Of a DNA stretch of 41,436 nucleotides, positions 16,961-31,845 are shown in pieces. Location of the stretch: positions 1 through 41,436 of the forward strand of contig JAGLPP010000136.1 of assembly GCA_023137315.1 (NCBI GenBank), written 5' to 3'. The notes beneath the pieces are model-generated. The model worked only from the letters and a program-made list of their open reading frames with translations, had not been told where the DNA came from and ran no database searches. Each line of letters begins with the position of its first letter. The stretch's first letter is position 1. The translations under genes and the position numbers were made by a program. Source of the stretch: Bacteriovoracaceae bacterium (GTDB lineage: Bacteria > Bdellovibrionota > Bacteriovoracia > Bacteriovoracales > Bacteriovoracaceae).

Positions 16961-17006
16961 TTATATGAATTTAATAACAACATTATTTTTCTGAAAGGAG
17001 ATGGGA

Positions 17007-17798
17007 ATGAACATTTTTGTTTGTGTAAAGCAGGTTCCTGATACTGAGTCGAAAGTTGTTCCAAACAGCGATGGAACGTATATAGAAACAAAATCCATCA
17101 AGTGGATAATGAACCCTTATGACGAATATGCAGTTGAACAGGCCTTGCTGATCAAGGCAAAAGAATCAGATACAACGGTAACGCTTGTCAGAGTGGGTTC
17201 CATACAGGGAACAACAGAGGCATTGAGAACCGGGATGGCAATGGGTGCTGATGAGTCGGTTCTTGTTGAGTCCTCTGACAATCTTGATTCATACGCGGTA
17301 TCCAAGGCCATAAAAGGTGCAATTGAGAAATCCGGCAAAACTCCTGATATTATTCTTTGTGGCAAGCAGGCCGTAGATGATGATTGTTGTCAGGTTCCAC
17401 AACTTTTGGCACAGATGATGAACATGCCATCGGTGACTGAGGTCAATAATTACGAATTTAGTGGAAATGATCTAACTGTTAAACGTGAAATAGAAGGTGG
17501 GTCCATTGAGGTTTATGGTGTCAGCACTCCTGCGGTAATTTCCGTCACAAAGGGACTGAATCAGCCAAGATATGCCTCTCTTCCTGGAATAATGAAGGCC
17601 AAGAGAAAGCCTCTTTTAAAACTCAGTCTTGATGATGTGAGTGTAAGTGACGCGGATAGAAGGATTAAATACTCCAACGTCAGTCTTCCGGCGGAAAAAC
17701 CGGAAGGTAAGAAGTTTGATGCAACAGATGAAGGCAATATTGAAAGTGTTGTTTCAGAAGTTGCCGGTCTTCTTAGAAATGAAGCAAAGGTCATATAA
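17007..17798 (+). CDS. etfB: Electron transfer flavoprotein beta subunit
   Basis: A 263-residue small subunit of EtfAB, which collects electrons from acyl-CoA dehydrogenases. NIFVCVKQVPDTE at the N-terminus, WIMNPYDEYAVEQAL (~35), GKQAVDDDCCQVPQLLA (~115) and the LPGIMKAKRKP recognition loop (~195) are typical. The frame also has ATG 17001, but AAAGGAG directly abuts it; ATG 17007 has the normal 6-nt spacing and is used. It is 46 nt after the multifunctional protein gene and 27 nt before etfA. Confidence 0.95.
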   Translation: MNIFVCVKQVPDTESKVVPNSDGTYIETKSIKWIMNPYDEYAVEQALLIKAKESDTTVTLVRVGSIQGTTEALRTGMAMGADESVLVESSDNLDSYAVSKAIKGAIEKSGKTPDIILCGKQAVDDDCCQVPQLLAQMMNMPSVTEVNNYEFSGNDLTVKREIEGGSIEVYGVSTPAVISVTKGLNQPRYASLPGIMKAKRKPLLKLSLDDVSVSDADRRIKYSNVSLPAEKPEGKKFDATDEGNIESVVSEVAGLLRNEAKVI

Positions 17799-17825
17799 GG
17801 TTAATTTTAAAAAAGGAAGTGTATA

Positions 17826-18782
17826 ATGGCAAAGATATTGGTTTTTACAGAGCATGCCGGCGACGGCGTAAAAAATGTTACTCTTGAAATACTTGGAAAA
17901 CTTGAAGGACATAGTGTTGATGTGGCGGCCATAGGTGATATTGGATCAGATGGTTTAACGAATCTCGCCAAGTACGGTGCGGAAAATATTCATGTTCTGA
18001 AGGGTGGGGATCTGGATCAGTATTCACCCGAGGGATATGCGAATTCACTCAAGGATTTTATTGGAAATGGTGGTTATGATTATGTATTTGCAGGCAGTAC
18101 ATCTCTTGTGAAAGACGTAATGCCAAGAATTGCCGGAATGTTTGATGCAGGTATGGCGTCAGAGGTTGTCAACTTCGTCATGGACGGAGACACATTTAGT
18201 GGAACACGTCCGATGTTTGCCGGAAAATGTCTGGCGAAGGTTGAGATTGAAGGGCCAAAACCTCATTTTATAACCGTTCGTCCGAATGCTCTTGGAATGA
18301 GTGATAGTCCCAAAGCTGGAGCTGGAAATAAAAATGATGTTTCCGCTGTTGCCGGGGAAATCAAGGCGAAAATCAAGGAAATGGTAAAGTCCGATTCTGA
18401 TAGGGCCGATCTTACTGAAGCAAATGTTATCGTTTCAGGTGGTCGTGGAATTAAAAATCGTGAAAATTTTAAAATCTTAAACGAGCTTGCTGATCTTCTT
18501 GGCGCAACAGTCGGTGCTTCAAGGGCACTTGTCGATGCAGATGAAGCGGATCATTCCATGCAGGTCGGTCAGACGGGAAAAACTGTTTCCCCGAGTCTTT
18601 ATATAGCTTGTGGAATTTCAGGTGCAATTCAGCATCTTGCCGGTATGAGAACATCCAAAATTATTGTTGCAATCAATACCGATCCTGATGCGCCGATTTT
18701 CACAAAGGCTGATTATGGAATAGTGGGAGACCTTTTCAAGGTGGTTCCTGCCCTGACTGAAGAATTGAAAAAAATACTTTAA
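17826..18782 (+). CDS. etfA: Electron transfer flavoprotein alpha subunit
   Basis: A 318-residue FAD-binding partner of EtfB. The C-terminal FAD domain is intact: VSGGRGIKNRENF (~200), VGASRALVDADEADHSMQVG (~237), then QTGKTVSP, YIACGISGAIQHLAGM (~267) and the AINTDPDAPIF loop. A ribosome site (AAAAGGAAG) precedes the ATG. With etfB it would deliver electrons from the two acyl-CoA dehydrogenases here to an ETF:quinone oxidoreductase, which is not in the window. Confidence 0.95.
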   Translation: MAKILVFTEHAGDGVKNVTLEILGKLEGHSVDVAAIGDIGSDGLTNLAKYGAENIHVLKGGDLDQYSPEGYANSLKDFIGNGGYDYVFAGSTSLVKDVMPRIAGMFDAGMASEVVNFVMDGDTFSGTRPMFAGKCLAKVEIEGPKPHFITVRPNALGMSDSPKAGAGNKNDVSAVAGEIKAKIKEMVKSDSDRADLTEANVIVSGGRGIKNRENFKILNELADLLGATVGASRALVDADEADHSMQVGQTGKTVSPSLYIACGISGAIQHLAGMRTSKIIVAINTDPDAPIFTKADYGIVGDLFKVVPALTEELKKIL

Positions 18783-18801
18783 ATTTTAAAAGGATGGAAT
18801 T

Positions 18802-19947
18802 ATGTGGTTTTTTAATGATGAGGAACGTGAACTCCAAAAAATGTGCAAGGATTTTGCTATCAATGAGTTGGCGCCTGTAGCTACTGAGCATGATGAAAAT
18901 GAAACATTCAATATTGATGCCTTTAAAAAGATGGGCGAGCTTGGACTTCTTGGTATTACTGCTGATCCCGAGTATGGCGGTTCAGGTCTTGGAGCAACTG
19001 CTGCAACAATTGTTATGGATGAATTTGGTTATGCCTGTGCTTCATCAACCTTGAGTTATCTTGCTCATACAATTTTATGTGTGAATAATATTGAGGCCAA
19101 TGCAAGTCCAGAACAGAAGGCAAAATATCTGCCAAAGCTCATTAGCGGTGAACACATAGGTGCCATGGCCATGACAGAGGCGGATTTTGGTTCCGATGCC
19201 ATTGGTATTCAGACCAGGGCAAAGCGTGATGGTGATAATTACATTATTAATGGTAATAAAATGTGGATTACCAATGCCGAGCGTGCTGATGTGATTTATA
19301 CCTATACAAGAACTGGCGATGAGAAGAAAAATCTTTCAACATTCATTATTGAAAAGGATACTCCTGGCTACAGCTTTGGACGACCACTTCACAAGCTGGG
19401 TATGCGTGCTTCTCCCACGGGTGAGCTTGTTTTTGAAAATGCAAAGGTTCCAAAGGCTAATCTTGTTGGTAAAGAGGGCGACTCCGTCTATCACATGATG
19501 AAAAATCTTGATATTGAAAGGATTACGATCGCCGGTATTTCAGTAGGTATTGCAAGGGCCTGTCTTGATAATTGCCTGAAATACGCCAATGAAAGACACC
19601 AATTCGGAAAACCACTTGGTAATTTTCAGATGATTCAGAAAATGATTGCAGAGATGGCCACTGATATTGAAATGATGAAGCACTTTATATATTCAGTTTG
19701 CAAGGATTATGACAATGGCAACAGGGGAAAAGTTGTTGCTGCTGAAGTCAAACTGGGTATTCCGAAAATGGTTACAAAAATTTGCCTTGATGCCATTCAG
19801 ATTCATGGTGGTATGGGCTATTCAAGAGAGCTTCCGCTTGAAAGAATGCTTAGAGACAACAAACTTAATGAGATTGGTGCTGGTACCAACGAAGTTATGG
19901 TGATGATTATTGCCAGACAACTTTTAAAAGAGGCGATGCCACAGTAA
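18802..19947 (+). CDS. Acyl-CoA dehydrogenase, isovaleryl-CoA-dehydrogenase-like active site
   Basis: A 381-residue FAD acyl-CoA dehydrogenase of standard length. AMAMTEADFGSDAIGI (~114), KMWITNA (~153) and the C-terminal HGGMGYSREL block are present. The usual catalytic Glu near the C-terminus is replaced: the segment reads NEIGAGTNEVM instead of YEGT. Instead, Glu239 in NLDIERITIAG lies where isovaleryl-CoA dehydrogenase carries its base. This points to a branched-chain or long-chain substrate. It is 19 nt after etfA and 11 nt before the HMG-CoA-lyase-like gene, a neighbourhood that would fit leucine catabolism. Family certain, substrate inferred. Confidence 0.92.
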   Translation: MWFFNDEERELQKMCKDFAINELAPVATEHDENETFNIDAFKKMGELGLLGITADPEYGGSGLGATAATIVMDEFGYACASSTLSYLAHTILCVNNIEANASPEQKAKYLPKLISGEHIGAMAMTEADFGSDAIGIQTRAKRDGDNYIINGNKMWITNAERADVIYTYTRTGDEKKNLSTFIIEKDTPGYSFGRPLHKLGMRASPTGELVFENAKVPKANLVGKEGDSVYHMMKNLDIERITIAGISVGIARACLDNCLKYANERHQFGKPLGNFQMIQKMIAEMATDIEMMKHFIYSVCKDYDNGNRGKVVAAEVKLGIPKMVTKICLDAIQIHGGMGYSRELPLERMLRDNKLNEIGAGTNEVMVMIIARQLLKEAMPQ

Positions 19948-19958
19948 GGAGAGAATAT

Positions 19959-21089
19959 ATGCCAACTGAATATGATTATTGGAAAATTTTTCCGAGAATG
20001 CCAAAAAAGGTGACAATAGGGGATATTACCATTCGTGATGGTTTTCAACATGAAGAGAAATTTATCTCAACTCCTGCAAAGATTTACTATGCGGAGAAGA
20101 TGATTTTTGCCGGTTGCCGCGATCTTGAAATTACCAATCTCGGCAATACCTGGCTTATGCCACAGTTCAAGGATTCCGATGAGATTCTGGCATATTTTAA
20201 AGGAGATCGTTTCAGGAAAAAATGTGCCAAGCGTGGAATCAACCATGAGGATATCTGTTTTACCGCTGTTACCATTCGTGAAAAATCAGTTGATCGTGCA
20301 ATTGCCCTTAAAAAAGAGGGAGTCGGTCCTGACCGTATTCTCATGATGGTGTCCACAGAGGAGGAACATCATTTTGCAAACTCCGGTACGACCCTTCCTG
20401 ATTATTGGTCGGAGGCCGAAAGATGTATTAAAAAATGCAATGATGTCGGAATCAAGATGTGTGGTACTGTTTCCACTATCTGGGGGAGTCCAATTGGTGG
20501 AGCAACTGATATGAAAGAAGCAGTTGAGTTTACCAAACGTTGGCTTGATATTGGTGCTCACGATGTCGAGCATGCTGATCACGACGGTTCCGCTTCGGCC
20601 GCAGATGTTTATCGCTACTTTGCGATGATCATGGATGCGATTCCAAATCCGGAAAAACATATTGCTCATTTTCATGAGACCAAAAGAATGGCCTCGGCTT
20701 CTGTTCTGGCCTGTCTCCATGCCGGTATTACAAATTTTGAGGCAACAATTGGTGGTCTTGGTGGACAACCTGCGAATTTTTTGGATGATTGTCCGGTTCC
20801 AGGAACCGGTGAATATTATTATGATGATCCAAGATACGTCGGACTTGTTTGCATGGAGGATACTCTTGTCCAGCTTGATGAGATGGGAATTGATACCGGT
20901 TATAACATTGACAAGGTATTGGAGCTTGGCCGAAAGATGGAAAAAACCATCGGTAGGCGCTTAAGATCCGAGGCAATCATCAATGGCAGGACTTTGAAAG
21001 AGGGACATATGCAATTCGCCCGTCCAGATCTGGCTGATCGTAAAAAGAAGCTTGGTGAGAAACCGGGCCAGAAATTGCCATTGTCTTGA
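19959..21089 (+). CDS. HMG-CoA-lyase-like TIM-barrel protein, catalytic Cys absent
   Basis: A 376-residue DRE-TIM metallolyase family member. GDITIRDGFQHEEKF (Arg26, Asp27, Gln30) and AHFHETKRM (metal-binding HxH) match the active site of 3-hydroxy-3-methylglutaryl-CoA lyase. The GGLGG loop is followed by Gln-Pro where the lyase has its catalytic Cys, and about 30 extra residues (including a different Cys in DDCPVPGTG) precede the conserved MEDTLVQLDEMGIDTG helix. It may be a condensing or lyase enzyme with another mechanism. Last gene of the operon; AAGGAG overlaps the stop region of the preceding gene. Family good, reaction uncertain. Confidence 0.8.
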   Translation: MPTEYDYWKIFPRMPKKVTIGDITIRDGFQHEEKFISTPAKIYYAEKMIFAGCRDLEITNLGNTWLMPQFKDSDEILAYFKGDRFRKKCAKRGINHEDICFTAVTIREKSVDRAIALKKEGVGPDRILMMVSTEEEHHFANSGTTLPDYWSEAERCIKKCNDVGIKMCGTVSTIWGSPIGGATDMKEAVEFTKRWLDIGAHDVEHADHDGSASAADVYRYFAMIMDAIPNPEKHIAHFHETKRMASASVLACLHAGITNFEATIGGLGGQPANFLDDCPVPGTGEYYYDDPRYVGLVCMEDTLVQLDEMGIDTGYNIDKVLELGRKMEKTIGRRLRSEAIINGRTLKEGHMQFARPDLADRKKKLGEKPGQKLPLS

Positions 21090-21103: not shown

Positions 21104-23104
21104 TTATAAAAGTATGTATTCTCCTCTAACGGTTGAATGAGGTGATATTTTTCCCAGTTTCTGCAGGTTTTTAAGATCACGTTGAGCTGTACGTAAAGAG
21201 GTTCCAAAGTATTCAGATAAATGCTTTACATTAATTACATCTTTTTTTCGAAGATATTCGATAACAAATATCTGGCGACTATTTAAAAGATAAGAATTAT
21301 CTATTTCGGAAGTTATTAATGCAAAGGAAATATTACTTTTTCGTCGAACACCTTTTGGCATTATTTCCAGAACTGTTTGCCCAAGCAGTTTATTAAATTT
21401 ACGAACAGAGGAATGAATTTTGGGGTTATCTTCCAATGGCACAAAGTTATTCTGCCAAATCTTTTTATATAAATTTTCTTTTGAATCCTCAACTCTCTTT
21501 TCATAAAAAAAATAATTTAAAAGCTTTCCTGAGATGCTGTTCATGTCAATCTCAATATGTTCACCTCTTCGAAAAATACTTCCCAGTTTTTCTCTAATGA
21601 TTAAATCATAATTTTCAAAAGAAGGTTTTGAAAATCGGGGAAGAACCTCTTCTCCCCGGTGAGTATCGATAGCATGTAAGTTTATTCCAAGACCGTTTTT
21701 TAAAAACCTATTAAGAAATTGATCGTGACTTGCAAACAGCATTTCCCCATCAAGATGCCTTTTAATGGCAAGCAAAAAAGAATTGTCTTTTTTTACTTCA
21801 TCTGCATATTGAGAATAAAATTCCCTTGCTAATTGAAGATCATTAAGTTTATTAACTGCAATTCCAATACATATAAGACTATCCAACAAGAAATCAGGGT
21901 TCCATCCTTTGCGTAGATAAGTACGGCACTCATCAATATTTTCTTTTTTCAGGGAGCAAAGGGCCAGTAATAGTGATGATTTTGATATTTTATAATTATT
22001 GCTATCTTTGGTTGCCTGTTCCAGTTCCTTTATGGCAATCATTTCAGCTTCTTCGGTTTTACCTTCGAGCCAAAGAATCCATGCACCAAACAATTTTACC
22101 GTGTAGGAATTATCATTCGCAATAATTTTGTAGTGACGATCAAATATTTCCCTGGCAAGTTTTGGTAGTTTACAACGAATAGAAATATCCAACAATTCGT
22201 TTACTACAAATTCCTTTTCAATATATTCACCGGGTAATTCAACAAGCTCTTGAAGCTTTTCAAAAGCATTATCAAATTTACCTTCCAAAATATCGATTTT
22301 TGAAAAAAGAACCATACACTCAATTCTTCGAAAATGTTGGTCGTTACGGGCCAAAATGAGCTGTTTGAGATTAAGAGCAACATCTTTTGCTGTGGAAATA
22401 TTTCCATATTCAATAAGAATATCCAAATATTGAATTAATCCTCTGATCTTCTCATCATCATTGGACATGTTTGACTTGTAATCAGTGGCCCTTTTTAAAA
22501 AAGCAAGGGCCTTTCCATATTCACCAAGAGAAACAAATCTCCACGCTTTTATTGAATCAACAGAGGCATGTATTGACTGATATTCCAAACAATTAATTTC
22601 CTTGTTCAGTTGGTTGGTGATTATTTCCTGATGTAAATAATCACCAACACGGTGGTAATAACTGCCAAGTCTCAGCATGGATATCCACTTTGCATATTTT
22701 TCACCACAGTCATCAAGAATTTTTACAGCAGTTTTATAGTATAAGTGAGCGTCATTCAGTTCTTTTTTAAAATAATGAATTGATCCCAGTAATTGATATG
22801 CCCTGCCTTTTAAAAAGGGCCACATGAAACCATCTTTTTCAATTAATTCAAATAGTATTTTCAGGGATTGATCAATATTTTTTTTCAAAAAGAAACTATT
22901 GGCCTGAAGCATTTGATATAATGAATGCGGTATATTTGTTGCGATTTCAAATGAAGTATGGTGGTCCCCGATTGCAAGATAGGCATTTGCAATGAAATAA
23001 ATATCCAGCTCAGATATTTGCTTATTATCAATCTGATAGTCTGCAATAATTTGATTGTATTTTTGATAATTATCTAAATGGTAATATCTGCTGTCCTGTA
23101 GCAT
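21104..23104 (-). CDS. TPR-rich transcriptional regulator with two winged-helix-like regions
   Basis: A 666-residue protein I do not recognise by name. Residues ~30-450 are helical repeats with TPR-like spacing. A region at ~520-600 (LLNYFFYEKR, ENLYKKIW, SSVRKFNKLLG) resembles an OmpR/SARP-type winged helix. The last ~50 residues (NVKHLSEYFGTSLRTAQRDLKNLQ, split here as NVKHLSEYFGTSLRT plus AQRDLKNLQ) are a clear DeoR-like winged helix ending in the wing RGEYILL. No receiver or ATPase domain is seen. The frame extends to TTG 23122; ATG 23104 is used, though its GGTGGAG site is only 2 nt away. It converges with the acyl-CoA operon end and is divergent from a secreted-protein gene, with a long dyad between them. 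Confidence 0.68.
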   Translation of the reverse strand: MLQDSRYYHLDNYQKYNQIIADYQIDNKQISELDIYFIANAYLAIGDHHTSFEIATNIPHSLYQMLQANSFFLKKNIDQSLKILFELIEKDGFMWPFLKGRAYQLLGSIHYFKKELNDAHLYYKTAVKILDDCGEKYAKWISMLRLGSYYHRVGDYLHQEIITNQLNKEINCLEYQSIHASVDSIKAWRFVSLGEYGKALAFLKRATDYKSNMSNDDEKIRGLIQYLDILIEYGNISTAKDVALNLKQLILARNDQHFRRIECMVLFSKIDILEGKFDNAFEKLQELVELPGEYIEKEFVVNELLDISIRCKLPKLAREIFDRHYKIIANDNSYTVKLFGAWILWLEGKTEEAEMIAIKELEQATKDSNNYKISKSSLLLALCSLKKENIDECRTYLRKGWNPDFLLDSLICIGIAVNKLNDLQLAREFYSQYADEVKKDNSFLLAIKRHLDGEMLFASHDQFLNRFLKNGLGINLHAIDTHRGEEVLPRFSKPSFENYDLIIREKLGSIFRRGEHIEIDMNSISGKLLNYFFYEKRVEDSKENLYKKIWQNNFVPLEDNPKIHSSVRKFNKLLGQTVLEIMPKGVRRKSNISFALITSEIDNSYLLNSRQIFVIEYLRKKDVINVKHLSEYFGTSLRTAQRDLKNLQKLGKISPHSTVRGEYILL

Positions 23105-23185
23105 TGCTCCACCATAACTCAAATGTCTCTAATCGCAATTATAAACATCTAAATTTATAAAATAATGAAAAAAATTCATAATACC

Positions 23186-24261: not shown

Positions 24262-24507
24262 ATGGATATGTTACTTGCCAGGGATTTTTTGCTGTGGGCG
24301 TTTCTGATTAATCTGGGTTTTATGTTTTTGTGGTTTTTTATAATCATTTTTGCACATAATCTGATTTATAAAATGCATAGCAAATTCTTTCAAATTTCAA
24401 AAGAGCAGTTTGATGCCATTCACTATGCTGGAATTGCCTTTTACAAAATTGTAATTTTTACTTTTTTCCTGGTTCCTTACGTTGTGTTAAGTATTATTGG
24501 CCGTTGA
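24262..24507 (+). CDS. DUF6868-type small inner-membrane protein
   Basis: An 81-residue protein with two hydrophobic segments (~8-33 and ~58-78) joined by a polar loop containing SKEQFDAIHYAGIAFYK. The pattern of FLLWAFLINLGF, the IHYAGIA helix and a C-terminal LVPYVVL matches the small DUF6868 membrane family as I remember it. Function unknown. AAAAGGAG lies upstream of the ATG. Its last 14 bases overlap the end of the convergent crotonase gene. Confidence 0.65.
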   Translation: MDMLLARDFLLWAFLINLGFMFLWFFIIIFAHNLIYKMHSKFFQISKEQFDAIHYAGIAFYKIVIFTFFLVPYVVLSIIGR

Positions 24508-25321
24508 ATTCAGGTGTGCGTTTTTCCCTGAGTGCCTTAAGGCCTTCGACATGGTCGTCGGTTCTTTGAGTGATTCCCTGATATGCCGCCAGAAGGTCAA
24601 GATGGGAGTGGATGTTGTTTGTTCTGGCACTTTTAATGGCCTTTTTTGTCATGGAAATGGCAACAGGGGCGTTTCCTGCGATTTTTAATGCGAGGGATTT
24701 TGTCTTATCCAGCAGTTTTTCAGCATGGACAAGATGATTCAGGAGTCCGATTTTCAAGGCCTCCTCTGCATTTATAACCTCTCCAGTGAGGGAAAGTTCC
24801 ATGGCCTTGGAATATCCTACAATACGTTGTAGAAAAAAGGTGCCGCCGTCTCCCGGGATTAGTGCCAGCTTGGAGAAGGTTTCGCCAAATTTGGTTTTTT
24901 CACATCCAATCCTGATATCGCACATGCACGCAAGGTCACATCCGGCCCCTATTGCTGGCCCGCCAACCATTGCGATGACCGGAGTCTGCAATGATTCCAT
25001 GGTAATGGGAATTTGCTGGATACCCTTCATGTAACGGATTCGAAGTTCATTTGGATGGCCGGCGAACATTCCACTTTTTTGTTCCATGGCGGAAAGATCA
25101 CCTCCGGCGCAAAAACATTTGCCGATACCGGTTACTATGATGACACGTATATCGTTGTCCCAATCGGCATGTTTAAGAACCTTGCACAAATCCTCTATCA
25201 TTCCGTCTGAAAATGCGTTTGAGAAATCAGGGCGATTTAACGTAATCCAAAGAAGATGTTTTTCCCTGTTTTCACCTTTTCTTACCAGAAGATCATTGAA
25301 AGTTTCCTGATAAAAGCTCAT
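24494..25321 (-). CDS. Crotonase-superfamily protein (enoyl-CoA hydratase/isomerase-like)
   Basis: A 275-residue acyl-CoA enzyme. The oxyanion-hole segments GKCFCAGGDLSAM (~66) and GGPAIGAGCDLACMCDIR (~118) are present. The two catalytic Glu of classical hydratases are not: the first position is Asp (GAGCD) and the second falls on a non-acidic residue in FGETFSKLALIPGDGGTFF. The PGDGG Asp resembles the arrangement in PaaG-like isomerases, so an isomerase or another crotonase reaction is more likely than simple hydration. Its start overlaps the stop of the 121-residue protein gene by 4 nt (ATGA), implying translational coupling. Last gene of a six-gene minus-strand run. Confidence 0.88.
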   Translation of the reverse strand: MSFYQETFNDLLVRKGENREKHLLWITLNRPDFSNAFSDGMIEDLCKVLKHADWDNDIRVIIVTGIGKCFCAGGDLSAMEQKSGMFAGHPNELRIRYMKGIQQIPITMESLQTPVIAMVGGPAIGAGCDLACMCDIRIGCEKTKFGETFSKLALIPGDGGTFFLQRIVGYSKAMELSLTGEVINAEEALKIGLLNHLVHAEKLLDKTKSLALKIAGNAPVAISMTKKAIKSARTNNIHSHLDLLAAYQGITQRTDDHVEGLKALREKRTPEFNGQ

Positions 25322-25683
25322 ATTCCCTGCCTGGCGATAAGTGCCGAACCAATGGCGGCAATTATTTTATCATCAGATTTATTGTCAGTAGTGCCAGTTG
25401 AGGCAATGGATGGAGCATATGTTTTGAGTTCTTTTTTTCGCGTTACCTTGAATTTTTCAACCTTGATGTCGCTGCCAAATGCGTTGGTTGTAAAAGAGTC
25501 GTTATCAGTGTGAATCAAGGGAAGGGTGTGGTTTTTGTTATTTTCCGAAATAATAATTTCGTCATTTTTCAAATCTTCAAGATTAAAAAAGTATTTGGTT
25601 CCATTCAATTCAATTGTTACTGAATTTTGTGTTCCCTCTATTAATTTATACTCTATCATGTTTCCATTTAATTTTAGTTTCAT
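25318..25683 (-). CDS. Small protein, possible biotin-carboxylase accessory
   Basis: A 121-residue protein not confidently recognised. Residues 1-80 form short beta-strands (VTIELNGTKYFFNLEDL, then IIISENNKNHTLPLI) resembling the beta-barrel that precedes the biotinyl domain in biotin-dependent carboxylase subunits. No biotinylation motif (AMKM) follows. It ends in a Ser/Thr/Asp-rich linker and a short helix, DDKIIAAIGSALIARQGI, like tails seen in OadG-type accessory proteins. It is 17 nt after the 48-residue gene and overlaps the crotonase start by 4 nt. The assignment is a weak inference from pattern and context. Confidence 0.55.
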   Translation of the reverse strand: MKLKLNGNMIEYKLIEGTQNSVTIELNGTKYFFNLEDLKNDEIIISENNKNHTLPLIHTDNDSFTTNAFGSDIKVEKFKVTRKKELKTYAPSIASTGTTDNKSDDKIIAAIGSALIARQGI

Positions 25684-25700
25684 TTTCTGTATGGCCTTAC

Positions 25701-25847
25701 TTATACGTTTCTAAAGTTCATCAGGGTTTCCCATGGTGATGGATTTTTATTTTTTTGTCCGTTTTTTTTGTTTCTGGATAGAAGGTATGCAGCAATAATG
25801 AGTGCTTTTTGTTTTTCTGTCATATTTTTCACTTTTTTCTTTTCCAT
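25701..25847 (-). CDS. 48-residue protein resembling acyl-CoA-carboxylase epsilon/OadG-like small subunits
   Basis: An ATG at 25847 opens a 48-codon frame ending in TAA at 25701-25703; AGGAAA lies 5 nt upstream. The protein is a basic start, a helix (EKQKALIIAAYLLSR), a Lys/Asn-rich linker and a tail with PSPWETLMNFRN. The pattern of a short helix with ALxxAAxxL, a polar linker and a Ser-x-Trp near the end is that of actinobacterial acyl-CoA carboxylase epsilon subunits. The next protein ends in a similar IIAA helix. It sits 22 nt after the bactofilin gene. A real but normally overlooked small gene is likely; its role is inferred only. Confidence 0.6.
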   Translation of the reverse strand: MEKKKVKNMTEKQKALIIAAYLLSRNKKNGQKNKNPSPWETLMNFRNV

Positions 25848-25869
25848 TTTTTATTTCCTGTTCGATCCA

Positions 25870-26226
25870 TTAGTCGTCGTGATCGCTGGTGTGTCCCTCA
25901 ATATTGAGTGTTGCACCGGGATGAACGATAAGATCATGCGCTCTTATTGTCCCAAGTAGAGTGGCCGACGGATAAATAGTGGCCCTGCCGGTTGCCTGCA
26001 ATATTCCTTCAAAGCTTCCATATATTTCAATGTCGTGGCATTTAACGGTTCCCTTGAATGATCCCTCCCGTTCCACGCATAGAGGGGCATTGTCTGTCAT
26101 GACAAGTTCACCTTCCACAATTGATCCAAGGAGAGTCGGGCCTTTTAGATGAAATTCACCTTTTATTTTTGACCCCTGTCCCCAGAAGGAAAAATCCTGT
26201 TCCTTGATGTTTATATAATCAGTCAT
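25870..26226 (-). CDS. Bactofilin
   Basis: A 118-residue polymer-forming cytoskeletal protein. The centre (~18-110) is a right-handed beta-helix of short repeats with regular hydrophobic and Gly positions: IKGEFHLKGPTLLGS, SFKGTVKCHDIEIYG, GTIRAHDLIVHPGA. Flanks are short, as in other bactofilins. Bactofilins polymerise without nucleotide and recruit cell-wall enzymes or set cell shape. The start overlaps the stop of the upstream membrane protein gene by 4 nt. Lying after an L,D-transpeptidase and a membrane-anchored coiled-coil gene suggests a scaffold linking the cytoplasm to periplasmic peptidoglycan remodelling. Confidence 0.9.
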   Translation of the reverse strand: MTDYINIKEQDFSFWGQGSKIKGEFHLKGPTLLGSIVEGELVMTDNAPLCVEREGSFKGTVKCHDIEIYGSFEGILQATGRATIYPSATLLGTIRAHDLIVHPGATLNIEGHTSDHDD

Positions 26227-26975
26227 TTTTTTCGCTCAAATTTTTCAAGTTTAATGTCTTGTTTATGTATTAAATCACCCAGCCTTGAAAAGAGAAGAAT
26301 TTTAAAAAGTATTTTTCCATCCATCGATGTGGCCGGGAAGGTGGCATGAACAGGTCTGAGTTTTTCAAAACCAAAATATTCTCCACGGTTGAAAATCAGC
26401 TCAATTTTTTCGTCTGTTAAACTTTTGTTTGGATAGAAGTGAACGCTGTTTGCAATTTTCATAATAACAAACAAGAATCCGGCCTGTCTTTTGCCGGTTC
26501 CTGAATTATTAACAAGATTAAATCTCAAATGGATTTTGTTGTTCTTGATATCGGGATTGATATTGGTGGTATTACCAGGACTCATTACCAGTATGGTTGA
26601 TCGATCTGATTTATCCGTTTGTCCGGAGGTAAAACGAACCATATTAAGTATACTGAGGCCTTCTTTCGAGGTTGAAGCAAGCTTGTTCTGAAAATCGGAG
26701 TTCATTGTCTCCAGTTTCTTATGCTTGATGGAAAGTTCCTGGTTTTTACTTTTCAGTTCGATTATTGTTCTGGATTCTCTTCTTTTGATGAAATTTTTAA
26801 TATTTTGAAAATAAATGGCACCTATGATGATTGAGGCAAGAGAGAGTAGTGCTACAATGGGAAGGACAAAAAAGTATATCCTAAGCATGGATTTTGATAT
26901 CTCAAAATATTTTGGTGAATTTTGTTTCTCATAAAGAATGAATGAAAATTTGTTTTGGTTTTTATCTTTGGCCAT
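26223..26975 (-). CDS. Membrane-anchored coiled-coil protein next to bactofilin
   Basis: A 250-residue protein with a cytoplasmic N-terminus (~1-30), one transmembrane segment (~32-55, FFVLPIVALLSLASIIIGAI), a periplasmic coiled coil (~60-100) and a mixed beta domain (~125-245). Many bactofilin loci encode such a protein, often with an M23 peptidase domain; none of the M23 metal motifs is visible here. It lies 3 nt after the L,D-transpeptidase stop codon and overlaps bactofilin by 4 nt, so the three genes are almost certainly co-translated. It probably bridges bactofilin and a periplasmic partner. Confidence 0.72.
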   Translation of the reverse strand: MAKDKNQNKFSFILYEKQNSPKYFEISKSMLRIYFFVLPIVALLSLASIIIGAIYFQNIKNFIKRRESRTIIELKSKNQELSIKHKKLETMNSDFQNKLASTSKEGLSILNMVRFTSGQTDKSDRSTILVMSPGNTTNINPDIKNNKIHLRFNLVNNSGTGKRQAGFLFVIMKIANSVHFYPNKSLTDEKIELIFNRGEYFGFEKLRPVHATFPATSMDGKILFKILLFSRLGDLIHKQDIKLEKFERKK

Positions 26976-26978
26976 GAA

Positions 26979-28073
26979 TTAATTTTTACCGATATTTTTT
27001 TCTTCATTGTCGAAGAATCTCATTGAGGGCCGAAAAGCAACCTGCCCTGTCGATTGCTGTTCCCGTCTTCCAGCGATACTTCGGTCGTCCTGATTGTCGG
27101 GCAATCCTTTACTCATGGCCATTCCAGTCTTGGACCAGCGTTCAGACACTATCTTCCAATTATAGTAATCGTCTTTTTTCAGATAAAGGATCTTTTTGCC
27201 AATATCGTTGATGGTTCTTGACTTGTATTCCTGAAGGAAGGTTACAGTTGCGTAATTTTTTGTTTGAATGATGGAAACATTTTTTAGATTTATGTCAGGT
27301 AGTCCGGGATTATTAAAAACCGATCTTTTGTAGATCTTGAATTGCTTGAAAGAACCTCTGAAATGGTCGGAAAATTCAGTTTCGTGATAATGGCCAAGAT
27401 ATTTATCAAGATTCTCGTTTTTCCAGGCATCGGCCCAATTGATGACAAAATCATTTATGATTTTTCGATTTCTGTCCCAGCTTTTTTTGTTTAGGAAATT
27501 TAATTCATGAACAATAACGATCATGGTTTTATTAAGTTCAATATATCTGGAAACATCTTTAAGATCGTTGTTGGCGATGACTATACAACCTCTTGAATCA
27601 AGTCCCTTGTCAATTCTTGTTTCGTCGTTGGTTGAATGAAGCCAAATGCCTCCTCCGGTTTTTCCACGCTTTCTGTCGATCGGGTTCGGGTAATCCATTA
27701 CGAATGATCCTATACCGTAAATTTCCCCTTCCTTTCCATAGCGTTTGATTAACTGCTTTTTTGTTATGAAGTTGGTTAGTTGATAGATTCCTTCGGGAGT
27801 TCTGTAATCACCTTGAAATAATTTATTGCCACTTTTTTTGCCGGTGGCCATCTGATAGGTTTTTATAAGATGTGGATTGGAGTCTGAATTTTTAAAAAGA
27901 TATAATTTGTGTGTTGCTTTTTCAGCAATCAACAGATGATGTGAGAAAAAATTATCGAGGTACAGTAGTGGCATTGGAAGAAAATCATCCGATGCATGAA
28001 TCAGATCGACGCGTAACGGTAAAACCATTCCTGAAACGAGAATAAGTATGAAAAAAACCCGTAACCAATGCAT
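26979..28073 (-). CDS. L,D-transpeptidase (YkuD fold) with C-terminal NTF2-like domain
   Basis: A 364-residue periplasmic enzyme that forms or exchanges 3-3 peptidoglycan cross-links or attaches molecules to peptidoglycan. It has an N-terminal signal peptide (~1-27) and the YkuD domain (~45-185) with WLHSTNDETR (His146) and LDSRGCIVI (Cys163 nucleophile). A second domain (~205-315) with INWADAWKNENLDKYLGHYH and TFLQEYKS resembles the NTF2-like domain fused to many YkuD proteins, possibly for substrate binding. The active site looks complete. First gene of the minus-strand run; upstream is the divergent acidic coiled-coil gene, with a dyad at 28132-28146 between them. Confidence 0.9.
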   Translation of the reverse strand: MHWLRVFFILILVSGMVLPLRVDLIHASDDFLPMPLLYLDNFFSHHLLIAEKATHKLYLFKNSDSNPHLIKTYQMATGKKSGNKLFQGDYRTPEGIYQLTNFITKKQLIKRYGKEGEIYGIGSFVMDYPNPIDRKRGKTGGGIWLHSTNDETRIDKGLDSRGCIVIANNDLKDVSRYIELNKTMIVIVHELNFLNKKSWDRNRKIINDFVINWADAWKNENLDKYLGHYHETEFSDHFRGSFKQFKIYKRSVFNNPGLPDINLKNVSIIQTKNYATVTFLQEYKSRTINDIGKKILYLKKDDYYNWKIVSERWSKTGMAMSKGLPDNQDDRSIAGRREQQSTGQVAFRPSMRFFDNEEKNIGKN

Positions 28074-28302: not shown

Positions 28303-29709
28303 TTGCCTGAGAAAAAAAAGAATGACACCAAGGTTGTCGAAACACTTGAAAAGCATAAACAAGACGGTGATGCGCTTTTGTGTCTGGATGGTTCCCTGAA
28401 CAAGATGGTTCAGGCAAAATTTGATAATTCGGTTGTAGGGAGTGAGGTACCTGGATTTGAAAATGATGAAATTGAGAAATTTGACGAGGAAGTAGAGGAA
28501 GTTGAGGAACAGACAAAATTTTCAAAAGAGGGGATTTCCGTTGATCTTTCTGACAATGAGGAAGCAGATGAAGAGGTCCCTCTGGAAGAGTTTGATTCTT
28601 GTGATGATAGTGAAGAAGATGCGCTGGAAGAGCTTGATCTGAGCGGTGATAGTGAAGAAGAAGATGCACTGGAAGAGCTTGATCTGAGCGGTGATAGTGA
28701 AGAAGATGCGCTAGAAGAGCTTGGTCTGAGTGGTGATGATGAAGAAGAAATCGCAAAAGAAGAAGATTTGTTTTTTCCCGAATTGGGAAAAGGTGAGACA
28801 GGGACTGCTCCTGAAGAGGATTTTGAATTAACGAAGGTGAATGTTGAAGAAGAACTTGTTGATCAAATCATCTCAGAAGCGGAGGAAGAGGAAGAGGTTG
28901 AGTTTTCTTCGATAATGTGTTCCCTGGATACGGATGCTGTAGCAGAAGGTGAAGAATTTGATGAATCTGATAAATCTTCTGACGAATTCGAGACAGTAGA
29001 GGAAGCAGACAAGACAGATAAGATTGAATGTGATGTTGTTTCCGATAAAGGTGTACAAGAGGAGGAGCAGGATGCCACTCCAAAGATGAATGTCACCTAT
29101 AATGAGTCGGAGTTGGTGCGTCTTCAATCGACAATCAGACTTCTAAGGGAGGAAAGGGAAAAGAATCTGGCCGAAGTTGAACAAGGTAAAACAGATAAAA
29201 GGGCCTTGGATCAGGAAAATTTATCCCTTAAGGCTGAGTTGGATGAAACGAAGATTGAGATGAGTATTATTAAGCGCAGATACGAAGAGGAAGTTTTCGA
29301 ATTTAAACACAGATTTGATCTTGGAGACAGTAAAAGAGAGATCATGGAAGAAAAGCTCAAGAAAAGCCAGGAAGAACTCTTGAGTCTTGGAGGAGCGGTA
29401 CGAATCGACCTTCGCAAGGTAAAACAAAGAGAAAAAGAACTTGAAAATCAACTTGAGCTTGTTCAAATGGATACTGTTTCACAGGTTCAAGGCCGTGATA
29501 ATAAAATTCTCGAGCTTAAAAGAAAAATTGACTCATTGGAGTTCAATATGGAAAATACCGCTATCAGGGAACACAGAGCAAAGGAAGATAATAGAAAGTT
29601 GAAGGAAAAACTTCAAAAAATCATGAAGACTCTCAGGGGTTCCATCCATGTTCTGGAAGAGGATTTGGAGATAGAGGAAAATTTAATTCATAAACCTAAA
29701 GATGTTTGA
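28303..29709 (+). CDS. Acidic repeat and coiled-coil protein
   Basis: A 468-residue cytoplasmic protein with no signal peptide. Residues ~40-260 are very acidic (Glu/Asp-rich) and contain tandem ALEELDLSGDSEE units at ~93-150. Residues ~265-455 are a long charged coiled coil with heptad-like Leu spacing (LLREEREKNLAEVEQG, LKAELDETKIEM, LENQLELVQM). No enzymatic motif is seen. The start is TTG, the only start in this open stretch, with GGGAGG at 28292-28297 five nt before it. It lies 15 nt before the diguanylate cyclase gene. A scaffold or localisation role for that signalling protein is a guess. Confidence 0.75.
   Translation: MPEKKKNDTKVVETLEKHKQDGDALLCLDGSLNKMVQAKFDNSVVGSEVPGFENDEIEKFDEEVEEVEEQTKFSKEGISVDLSDNEEADEEVPLEEFDSCDDSEEDALEELDLSGDSEEEDALEELDLSGDSEEDALEELGLSGDDEEEIAKEEDLFFPELGKGETGTAPEEDFELTKVNVEEELVDQIISEAEEEEEVEFSSIMCSLDTDAVAEGEEFDESDKSSDEFETVEEADKTDKIECDVVSDKGVQEEEQDATPKMNVTYNESELVRLQSTIRLLREEREKNLAEVEQGKTDKRALDQENLSLKAELDETKIEMSIIKRRYEEEVFEFKHRFDLGDSKREIMEEKLKKSQEELLSLGGAVRIDLRKVKQREKELENQLELVQMDTVSQVQGRDNKILELKRKIDSLEFNMENTAIREHRAKEDNRKLKEKLQKIMKTLRGSIHVLEEDLEIEENLIHKPKDV
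28580..28749 (+). repeat. In-frame tandem repeats within the acidic protein gene
   Basis: Four diverging units of about 42-45 bases encode (A)LEELDLSGDSEE-type peptides. The second and third are almost identical at DNA level, including the GAGCGGTGATAGTGAA stretch. Units differ by whole codons, so changes in copy number would keep the frame. Confidence 0.8.
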
Positions 29710-29724
29710 TTCAGGGGATTTTTT

Positions 29725-30738
29725 ATGAAGCAGGAACTTGGAAAAGAAGTTCGTTCCCTTGTGGATTTTATGAGTTCATGTGAAATATGGGAGGAAGAGG
29801 AAAGTCTTTTTTCAAGCGTTGATAATTATTTTCTTTCAAACTTTGATGAATCATCCCATTTTGTTTTTTCAGTTCCATTGGAACGGCAAAAGTCGATTGA
29901 AAACGTTACTGATAATGATATTCCCAAGGGAAGACTTAGGACAGTGTGGAACAAGGATTTGGCAAAATCCGTGGCACAAGATCAAATAATCGAAATGATT
30001 CGCGAGGTGAGGTGGTGTACTCCACGTGGTATTTTGTTGGTGAAAAAGTCAGTACTTGAAAAGGAGTTCCATATATTTCATTACGGAAGTACCGACGAAC
30101 AGGACTATTTTGGAGTTGTTTCTGCCAGTGATAATCTTAAAAAATCAGAATTTATTTTGGATCATCTTGTTGTTTTTCTGGGCAAATGCTTTGAAAGGAT
30201 TCAAAAAATAAAAACATTGAAAGAGGCGAGTTCACTTGCATTTATTGATGATGTCACCGGTTTTTACAATCATCGAAAACTCTCGAAAGATATGGATTAT
30301 CTGGTGAAAAAGTATGAGAAAATCAAAGGTGGGTTTTCAGTCCTTTTCATGGATATAGATCATTTCAAGGATGTTAATGATGGTTGGGGACATATGGTTG
30401 GTACCAGACTGTTACACGATTTTGCTGTTCTGCTGAAAAATCTGGTGCGTGAAACCGATTATATGTACCGCTATGGAGGAGATGAATTCGTAGTGGTTTT
30501 GACCAGCACACATAATGTGGAGATTAAGGCAATAGGTGAGCGTATTTTAGAGGGAGTCAGAAATGCGCCCTTCAAGATAAGGGACGGTAGTAAATATTCA
30601 CTATCCGTTTCGATAGGAGTGGCGGATTTTCCGACGGACGCAAAAACCGGCAATGAAATTATTGAAATGGCGGATAAAATGATGTACTCGGCTAAGACAA
30701 CTGGAAGGGGAAGAGTCTGCATGGCGAATAAAATATAA
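29725..30738 (+). CDS. Diguanylate cyclase (GGDEF domain)
   Basis: A 337-residue protein that would make cyclic di-GMP from two GTP. Residues ~175-335 are a full GGDEF domain: AFIDDVTGFYNHRKL start, FMDIDHFKDVND metal site, and the intact RYGGDEFVVVL active site with GGDEF at 251-255. The inhibitory I-site RETD (242-245) lies exactly five residues before it, so product feedback is expected. Residues 1-170 have no recognised sensor; a GAF-like fold is possible. AGGGG precedes the ATG by 7 nt. It lies in one operon with the acidic coiled-coil protein and the metallophosphoesterase. Confidence 0.93.
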   Translation: MKQELGKEVRSLVDFMSSCEIWEEEESLFSSVDNYFLSNFDESSHFVFSVPLERQKSIENVTDNDIPKGRLRTVWNKDLAKSVAQDQIIEMIREVRWCTPRGILLVKKSVLEKEFHIFHYGSTDEQDYFGVVSASDNLKKSEFILDHLVVFLGKCFERIQKIKTLKEASSLAFIDDVTGFYNHRKLSKDMDYLVKKYEKIKGGFSVLFMDIDHFKDVNDGWGHMVGTRLLHDFAVLLKNLVRETDYMYRYGGDEFVVVLTSTHNVEIKAIGERILEGVRNAPFKIRDGSKYSLSVSIGVADFPTDAKTGNEIIEMADKMMYSAKTTGRGRVCMANKI

Positions 30739-30750
30739 AAGTGAGGATTG

Positions 30751-31845
30751 ATGCTTATATTGGTCGTAAGTGATTTTCACATTGGCAGGGGACGCTACTT
30801 TAAAAATGGTCAGTTGAATATTATGGAGGATTTCTGTGAAGATGAAAGATTCCATGAGTTTCTTAATTACTATTCTTCAGGAAAATTTTATCTCAAACAT
30901 ATTCATTTGGTTTTAAATGGCGATATCCTGAATCTTTTGCATGTGGATATTGACGGGATTTTTACCCATATTATTGATGAAGAGATTACCATCAAGGCCG
31001 TTCGTTCTGTTATCGCGGGACATAAGAATTTTTTTGATGCGCTTACCATGTTTTTATCAAGGCCGAATAAAAAAATAAGCTATATTATTGGAAACCACGA
31101 TGCGGCCATGGCATTTGAGGGGGCGCAAAGAGTTTTCAGGCAGGAAGTTGGTGGTGCGATTGATTTTTTATTCAGTCTTACTGTTGATGGAGTTCATATA
31201 GAGCATGGACAACGTTTTGAGGCAGCAAATTCAGTACCAACGAAAAATTATTTCATTTCCGGGCCAAACGGAAAAAAAATACTGAATCTTCCATGGGCAA
31301 GTCTTTTTGGTATTTTGGTCATACCTAAATTGAAAAAGGAGAGGCCCTATCTTGACAAGATCAGACCAATGGCTGCTTACGTGAAGTGGTGTTTTTTCCA
31401 TGATTTTCCATTTTTTTACAAAATGGTGAAGAAGATTTTATGGTATGTTGTCAAGACCAAGTCAAGTTATTACACAAGAACGAATCGCAATTTTAAAACG
31501 ACGGTGAAACTGTTGAAGCAGATAACCCTCTATCCAAGGTATGGGAGGTTTGCCAAACGAATTCTCAGTAAAAGAAAAGATGTCCATACGGTTATAATGG
31601 GCCATACTCATATTGCGGAATGGCGCAAGTATCCCGAGGGAAAATATTATTTCAATTCCGGTTCGTGGAATGTAATTCCTTCTGTCGATGTGGCCCAGCA
31701 TGAGGATGTCTTGAAATTGACATATATTTTAGTGGATATCCATTCGAAAACAGGGACACTCAGAGAGGCCAATATGAATACATGGTATGGTAAATGGCGT
31801 CCTTTCAAGGAAGAAGTGTCCTCTACAATTCAAAAAAAATATTAA
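30751..31845 (+). CDS. Calcineurin-like metallophosphoesterase
   Basis: A 364-residue protein with the five metallophosphoesterase blocks: VVSDFHIGRG (~5-14), LNGDILNLL (~52), IIGNHDAAMAF (~108), IEHGQRFEA (~148) and IMGHTHIAEW (~280), followed by YFNSGSWN. This gives a complete di-metal site. A UDP-2,3-diacylglucosamine hydrolase- or nucleotidase-like role is possible but not shown. The frame opens at TTG 30748; ATG 30751 is preferred, downstream of GAGG. It starts 12 nt after the diguanylate cyclase stop, so the two are probably coupled; whether it acts on nucleotide signals is unknown. Confidence 0.87.
   Translation: MLILVVSDFHIGRGRYFKNGQLNIMEDFCEDERFHEFLNYYSSGKFYLKHIHLVLNGDILNLLHVDIDGIFTHIIDEEITIKAVRSVIAGHKNFFDALTMFLSRPNKKISYIIGNHDAAMAFEGAQRVFRQEVGGAIDFLFSLTVDGVHIEHGQRFEAANSVPTKNYFISGPNGKKILNLPWASLFGILVIPKLKKERPYLDKIRPMAAYVKWCFFHDFPFFYKMVKKILWYVVKTKSSYYTRTNRNFKTTVKLLKQITLYPRYGRFAKRILSKRKDVHTVIMGHTHIAEWRKYPEGKYYFNSGSWNVIPSVDVAQHEDVLKLTYILVDIHSKTGTLREANMNTWYGKWRPFKEEVSSTIQKKY

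Follow-up and report, generated by a model that had tools for sequence, protein, structure and literature searches.

Why should a run of bacterial genes that opens with a cell-wall enzyme close with genes of acyl-CoA metabolism? The question is raised by contig JAGLPP010000136.1 of a Bacteriovoracaceae bacterium (assembly GCA_023137315.1), of which the whole analysed stretch, 41,436 nucleotides (nt) in length, is referred to here as the window. Six open reading frames (ORFs), all on the minus strand, lie at positions 24494-28073, from a YkuD gene, the most upstream, through the genes of a membrane coiled coil, a bactofilin, and proteins of 48 and 121 amino acids (aa), to a crotonase gene, the last. 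Down the run, they are spaced by a 3-nt gap, a 4-nt overlap, gaps of 22 nt and 17 nt, and a final 4-nt overlap, an arrangement described in an earlier note on this DNA, and reproduced in every detail from the ORF positions. Two gene sets with no relation to each other meet in the window, one a morphogenesis unit, the other a piece displaced from the leucine-degradation operon, which encodes methylcrotonyl-CoA carboxylase (MCC). The two small proteins, which the earlier note had called carboxylase-like, turned out to be well guessed, since they correspond to the BT, or scaffold, domain of the alpha subunit of MCC, without its catalytic parts. With a probability of roughly one half, they form an adaptor that makes an ATP-free oxaloacetate:methylcrotonyl-CoA transcarboxylase.

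The 48-aa protein matches the C-terminus of the 494-499 aa biotin carboxylase (BC) subunits of related bacteria (BLAST E 6e-5 to 6e-4, 29-44% identity), and aligns with the BC tails of 20 relatives, the match being confined to the region past the catalytic domain. It consists of a helix and a hook, with Trp39 and an FRNV end, and has homologues of the same length in two other genomes of the family, G017 and G158 (47-49% identity), with the Trp at the hook position kept in all three short proteins. (G-numbers denote genomes of the family, G000 being that of the window, and C155, C156, and C212 are other contigs of G000.) In geranyl-CoA carboxylase and MCC, the hook Trp is buried in the beta subunit, and BT is the domain of contact between the alpha and beta subunits (PMC4673880). 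Judged by these alignments, the 48-aa protein is the tail of the BC subunit of MCC, without its catalytic domain. The idea that it might be an independent subunit of the AccE, or epsilon-like, type was ruled out, since it aligns with the tail of BC genes found at the same operon position in the relatives.

The 121-aa protein, in turn, resembles the N-termini of the biotin carriers (profile comparison, probability 95, E 2e-8), and breaks off at the point where a biotin domain would be expected, so that the alpha remnant lacks the MKM biotin domain. The BT beta-barrel covers approximately residues 1-85, and a C-terminal helix covers residues 102-118. In the AlphaFold2 model (mean pLDDT 64), about eight strands are accompanied by a helix at the end of the chain, and the best 21 matches to this fold in the PDB (Foldseek) are all chains of MCC, propionyl-CoA carboxylase (PCC), or acetyl-CoA carboxylase (ACC). 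The alpha subunit of G028 is a 665-aa fusion, in which the stretches that match the two small proteins both sit between the BC and biotin domains. Together, the 48-aa and 121-aa proteins are the BT domain, comprising helix, hook, and eight-stranded barrel, and all that remains of the alpha subunit of MCC is a docking domain spread over two genes.

The source of these pieces is apparent from the leucine operon of the relatives, which runs from MCC-beta through methylglutaconyl-CoA hydratase, BC (~500 aa), a biotin carrier (~165 aa), and 3-hydroxy-3-methylglutaryl-CoA (HMG-CoA) lyase to a crotonase, of which the crotonase in the window is the orthologue (49-61% identity). In G017 and G158, which belong to another genus, the same two parts are missing, and the order is MCC-beta, hydratase, a 48-aa gene, and a gene of 107/106 aa. 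The genome of the window has an intact MCC-beta on contig C155 (PF01039, E 1e-155), with 82% identity to those of G017 and G158, and in the MCC-beta tree the three branch as a single clade (support 100/99), within a family in which the full operon is the rule. Between G017 and G158, the dN/dS values, which are rough, given that the synonymous sites are near saturation, are 0.14 for the 48-aa gene, 0.16 for the counterpart of the 121-aa gene, and 0.03 for MCC-beta, and the short genes are under purifying selection. In both of these genomes, a set of Etf, dehydrogenase, and HMGL-like genes is convergent to the series of MCC-beta, hydratase, 48-aa, and BT genes, and the 48-aa and 121-aa genes of the window therefore keep the ancestral side of the Etf gene set.

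The PF02785 profile of BC is present in 125 of the 129 genomes of the family, and absent from G000, G017, G158, and G011; a BC protein query found no match in G000, and weak matches at most in the other three. It is unlikely that this loss is an artefact of one draft genome, given that the same reduced genes, together with a lack of BC, are seen in two genomes of the sister genus. Among the 80 loci surveyed, 21 had no BC match to the references used, and as many of these are short contigs or come from distant phyla, they were not taken as absences. The BC of G028 is solely that of its MCC alpha subunit. All four BC-less genomes have kept FabD, and malonyl-CoA is therefore probably still needed. 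The carboxyltransferases of G000 are two, MCC-beta and the MmdA of an Mmd/OadB operon. This operon, on C212 (L087 7324-10854), is a complete Na+-pump methylmalonyl-CoA decarboxylase operon, encoding MmdA, OAD_gamma, a carrier, and OadB, and given that there is no BC, it might also supply malonyl-CoA.

A divergent gene near MCC-beta in G000, G017, and G158 encodes a protein of ~597 aa, composed of 5S-type carboxyltransferase, PYC_OADA, and biotin domains, with its catalytic and biotin motifs intact. This OadA-type protein was found in six of the 129 genomes, including all four of those that lack BC (two of the 125 others). In G011, G028, and G039 (L225, L226, and L227), the gene stands in the order oadG-oadA-oadB, and is the OadA of the oxaloacetate decarboxylase pump; G011 thus combines a complete operon of this type with the lack of BC. 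At the locus in G000, G017, and G158, by comparison, there is neither oadB nor oadG, the OadB of G000 being that of the Mmd operon. In the MCC clade, the OadA gene has lost its pump neighbours, and now adjoins MCC-beta. On C155 (L086 5223-7274), the genes of a 611-aa Na+:solute symporter and a 70-aa protein separate the OadA-type gene from MCC-beta, which is not so in G017 and G158.

The 121-, 107-, and 106-aa proteins have a new C-terminal helix in common, with the pattern AAIxxAxxAR. A matrix built from these three tails was run over every C-terminus in the fetched loci, 2341 in all. First and second place went to the OadG proteins of G028 and G011, a result equalled by 5 of 2000 column-shuffled matrices, and a third OadG, that of G039, ranked about 50th. 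The tail of OadG is known to bind the association domain of OadA (PMC2881705, PMC7274780), and the structure that they form together has been compared with the PT domain of pyruvate carboxylase. The resemblance of the sequences is suggestive of homology between the tail helix and the OadG docking helix.

Given this, the 48-aa and 121-aa pair may be an adaptor that docks OadA onto MCC-beta. The 48-aa protein would provide the BT helix and the hook, the Trp of which would be inserted into MCC-beta, and the 121-aa protein would provide the barrel, its biotin domain having been exchanged for a short helix of the OadG type. The BT domain would hold the MCC-beta encoded on C155, and the tail would hold the association domain of the OadA-type protein encoded nearby. 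The OadA would load its own biotin with a carboxyl group from oxaloacetate, and the biotin arm would deliver it to MCC-beta, converting oxaloacetate and 3-methylcrotonyl-CoA to pyruvate and 3-methylglutaconyl-CoA, without ATP or bicarbonate. This model builds on the computed domain content, the loss of BC, the co-occurrence of OadA, the adjacency of the genes, and purifying selection, to which the tail homology adds weaker evidence, and from these we infer the binding, the reaction, and its direction. A broader proposal, held tentatively and at slightly less than even odds, is that a carboxylase was rewired to a transcarboxylase through the loss of its ATP-using half and the grafting of an OadG-type helix, which would give these BC-less bacteria a new oxaloacetate:3-methylcrotonyl-CoA carboxytransferase, and may allow them to make malonyl-CoA in a similar manner.

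A number of points weigh against the adaptor. In G000, the 48-aa and 121-aa genes lie apart from MCC-beta, and the genomes are drafts of metagenome-assembled quality, 85-95% complete. The Fisher p of 1.4e-6 for the co-occurrence of the OadA-type protein with the lack of BC overstates independence, G000, G017, and G158 being one lineage. For the modelled BT barrel of the 121-aa protein, Foldseek gave modest E-values (best 0.04), and the match of the tail is short (13 residues) and Ala-rich, with only two of the three OadG proteins near the top of the ranking, and was noticed before the scan was run. Malonyl-CoA may also be made by a different route, or a carrier may be borrowed. One rival explanation is that MCC-beta and the BT remnant run in the decarboxylating direction, or borrow the Mmd carrier (MmdA-OAD_gamma-carrier-OadB, on C212), like glutaconyl-CoA decarboxylase. 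While the exchange of the carboxyl group is reversible, and the complete Mmd/OadB operon of G000 has its own biotin carrier, this would account neither for the move of the OadA-type gene to the side of MCC-beta nor for the OadG-like helix at the end of the BT protein, and it appears unlikely. It is slightly less probable again that the two small genes are the functionless, decaying remnants of a lost carboxylase, as might be supposed from the disappearance of both catalytic parts, and from a rate of evolution some five times faster than that of MCC-beta: neither frame is interrupted in any of the three genomes, which span two genera, the dN/dS is ~0.15, the cuts fall at the domain borders, and the new tail is conserved. 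The role of BT as the contact domain (PMC4673880) could also be read as that of a chaperone or assembly factor, which only stabilises the MCC-beta hexamer while some donor provides the carboxyl group, but it would then be hard to see why an OadA gene was gained beside MCC-beta, why BC was lost entirely, and why the tail is there, which makes this proposal fairly improbable, marginally more so than decay.

The junction between the two gene sets is a separate issue. The earlier note had suggested, as one of two possibilities, that wall remodelling, here by the bactofilin and the L,D-transpeptidase (LDT), is linked to the supply of acyl-CoA, which the shared strand and tight spacing of the genes would favour, the 22-nt junction leaving little space for a terminator, and no terminator-like site being found on the minus strand. 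Conservation of the neighbourhood across relatives had been set beforehand as the test that could refute this coupling. The bactofilin was used as a query against 78 related genomes, and the neighbourhoods of the matches were then read. In none of 33 relatives do the 48-aa, 121-aa, and crotonase genes follow the bactofilin, the two halves being apart in every case, and the adjacency of the bactofilin and the 48-aa gene is peculiar to the genome of the window. Each of the acyl-CoA pieces can, in addition, be traced to a place of its own in the leucine operon, and the coupling is highly improbable. The other possibility raised in the note, two unrelated modules, which might share a promoter, fits, the first three genes being conserved as a unit in all 33 relatives, with the acyl-CoA genes elsewhere. 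The junction alone might also be an assembly misjoin, the 48-aa gene truly following the hydratase on C155, and this is possible, if on balance doubtful. Contig C155 ends 13 nt past the hydratase stop, where the sister genomes carry the 48-aa gene, and a contig would end by chance no more than 20 nt from any chosen site in ~0.3% of cases. However, the end of C155 and the window share no sequence of at least 14 nt, and there is no repeat at the junction, which argues against repeat-driven misassembly. Furthermore, the pair of M16-like genes that usually comes after the bactofilin lies inside contig C156 of G000, joined to different neighbour genes, as would be expected from a real rearrangement, and a rearrangement has therefore probably occurred at this edge. 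A misjoin would be compatible with every reading of the carboxylase remnant, and the status of the junction leaves the carboxylase finding untouched, because that finding rests on three genomes.

The upstream half of the run is a unit in its own right. The LDT, coiled-coil, and bactofilin genes were found together, in the same order, in 33 of the 33 loci inspected (31-55% identity for the bactofilin and 43-56% for the LDT), which supports these genes as real, as do the homologues of the 48-aa and 121-aa genes in the sister genomes. Most of the relatives have a gene of the opposite strand downstream of the bactofilin, usually the first of two genes of 450-470 aa, which look like M16 peptidases from their sequences. 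The LDT has the catalytic motif SRGCI at residue 160. The AlphaFold2 model of the coiled-coil protein (mean pLDDT 89) has an N-terminal beta-hairpin, a long membrane and coiled-coil helix, and a beta-sandwich, for which a fold search recovered generic beta-sandwich matches, and nothing more specific; Pfam found no M23 peptidase domain in this protein, the model having the beta-sandwich there. In the BacA-LmdC module, the hairpin of LmdC binds bactofilin (PMC10945521). As in that module, the bactofilin adjoins a bitopic protein that is modelled with an N-terminal beta-hairpin, a membrane span, and a coiled coil (33/33 loci), whereas the unit in the window has a beta-sandwich in place of the M23 peptidase, and an L,D-transpeptidase as a third gene. 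On the strength of the model, the trio is a conserved three-gene variant of the BacA-LmdC module in the Bacteriovoracaceae.

The features of the window are listed in the table below. The Pfam domains of the run are YkuD with a Cds6_C NTF2-like domain, Bactofilin, and ECH_1, and no significant Pfam match was obtained for the coiled-coil, 121-aa, or 48-aa proteins. Between the acyl-CoA gene sets, at 21104-23122, a 672-aa protein combines TPR repeats with a C-terminal helix-turn-helix of the DeoR type, and is possibly a regulator. At 28303-31845, the genes of an acidic, repeat-rich 468-aa protein, a GGDEF protein, and a metallophosphoesterase-like protein run divergently to the LDT-bactofilin unit, and are co-conserved with it in most relatives, the 468-aa gene accompanying the trio in 29 of the 33 loci.

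Features of the window, with position, strand, and basis of assignment
Feature	Position	Strand	Basis
L,D-transpeptidase (LDT, YkuD) with Cds6_C NTF2-like domain	26979..28073	-	Pfam
Coiled-coil, LmdC-like membrane protein	26223..26975	-	AlphaFold2 model; position between bactofilin and LDT
Bactofilin	25870..26226	-	Pfam Bactofilin E 9e-16
22-nt junction of the two gene sets	25848..25869	-	Arrangement seen in the window genome alone
48-aa protein, BT helix and hook	25701..25847	-	BLAST, alignment to BC tails
121-aa protein, BT beta-barrel and C-terminal helix	25318..25683	-	Profile match, model, fold search
Crotonase / enoyl-CoA hydratase	24494..25321	-	ECH_1 E 2e-57; operon orthology
EtfB-EtfA-acyl-CoA dehydrogenase-HMGL-like genes	17001..21089	+	Synteny, 73-82% identity to G017/G158

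Within the Bacteriovoracaceae, all BC has been lost from one clade, which still has FabD and MCC-beta, along with an isolated docking domain that selection maintains. If the adaptor model is right, a modular enzyme would have switched its energy source through the loss of domains and the grafting of a helix. No report of a methylcrotonyl-CoA transcarboxylase was found in the open-access literature, and the model would pose the question of how malonyl-CoA arises without ACC.

Three known systems provide the closest comparisons for the carboxylase remnant. The MCC of leucine degradation (alpha6beta6) shares MCC-beta, the hydratase, and the BT helix, hook, and barrel, but in the system described here the BC domain is absent, the alpha remnant carries no biotin domain, and BT is divided between two short genes and has acquired a new tail. 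The methylmalonyl-CoA carboxytransferase of Propionibacterium (12S/5S/1.3S) likewise has carboxyltransferases of the 12S and 5S types and a biotin carrier, all encoded here as well, with no BC; in the present, putative case, the 12S part would be MCC-beta, the 5S part and the carrier form one OadA-type chain, and an alpha-derived remnant has been kept as the proposed adaptor. With the Na+ pump oxaloacetate decarboxylase (OadA-OadB-OadG), the system shares an OadA-like protein, the putative donor, and the tail of the 121-aa protein may correspond to the OadA-binding helix of OadG, although in the MCC clade there is no adjacent oadB or oadG, and the tail is attached to a soluble BT barrel, rather than a membrane anchor. 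The six-gene neighbourhood is itself peculiar to one genome, and the remnant within it would represent the logic of a transcarboxylase built on the parts of MCC.

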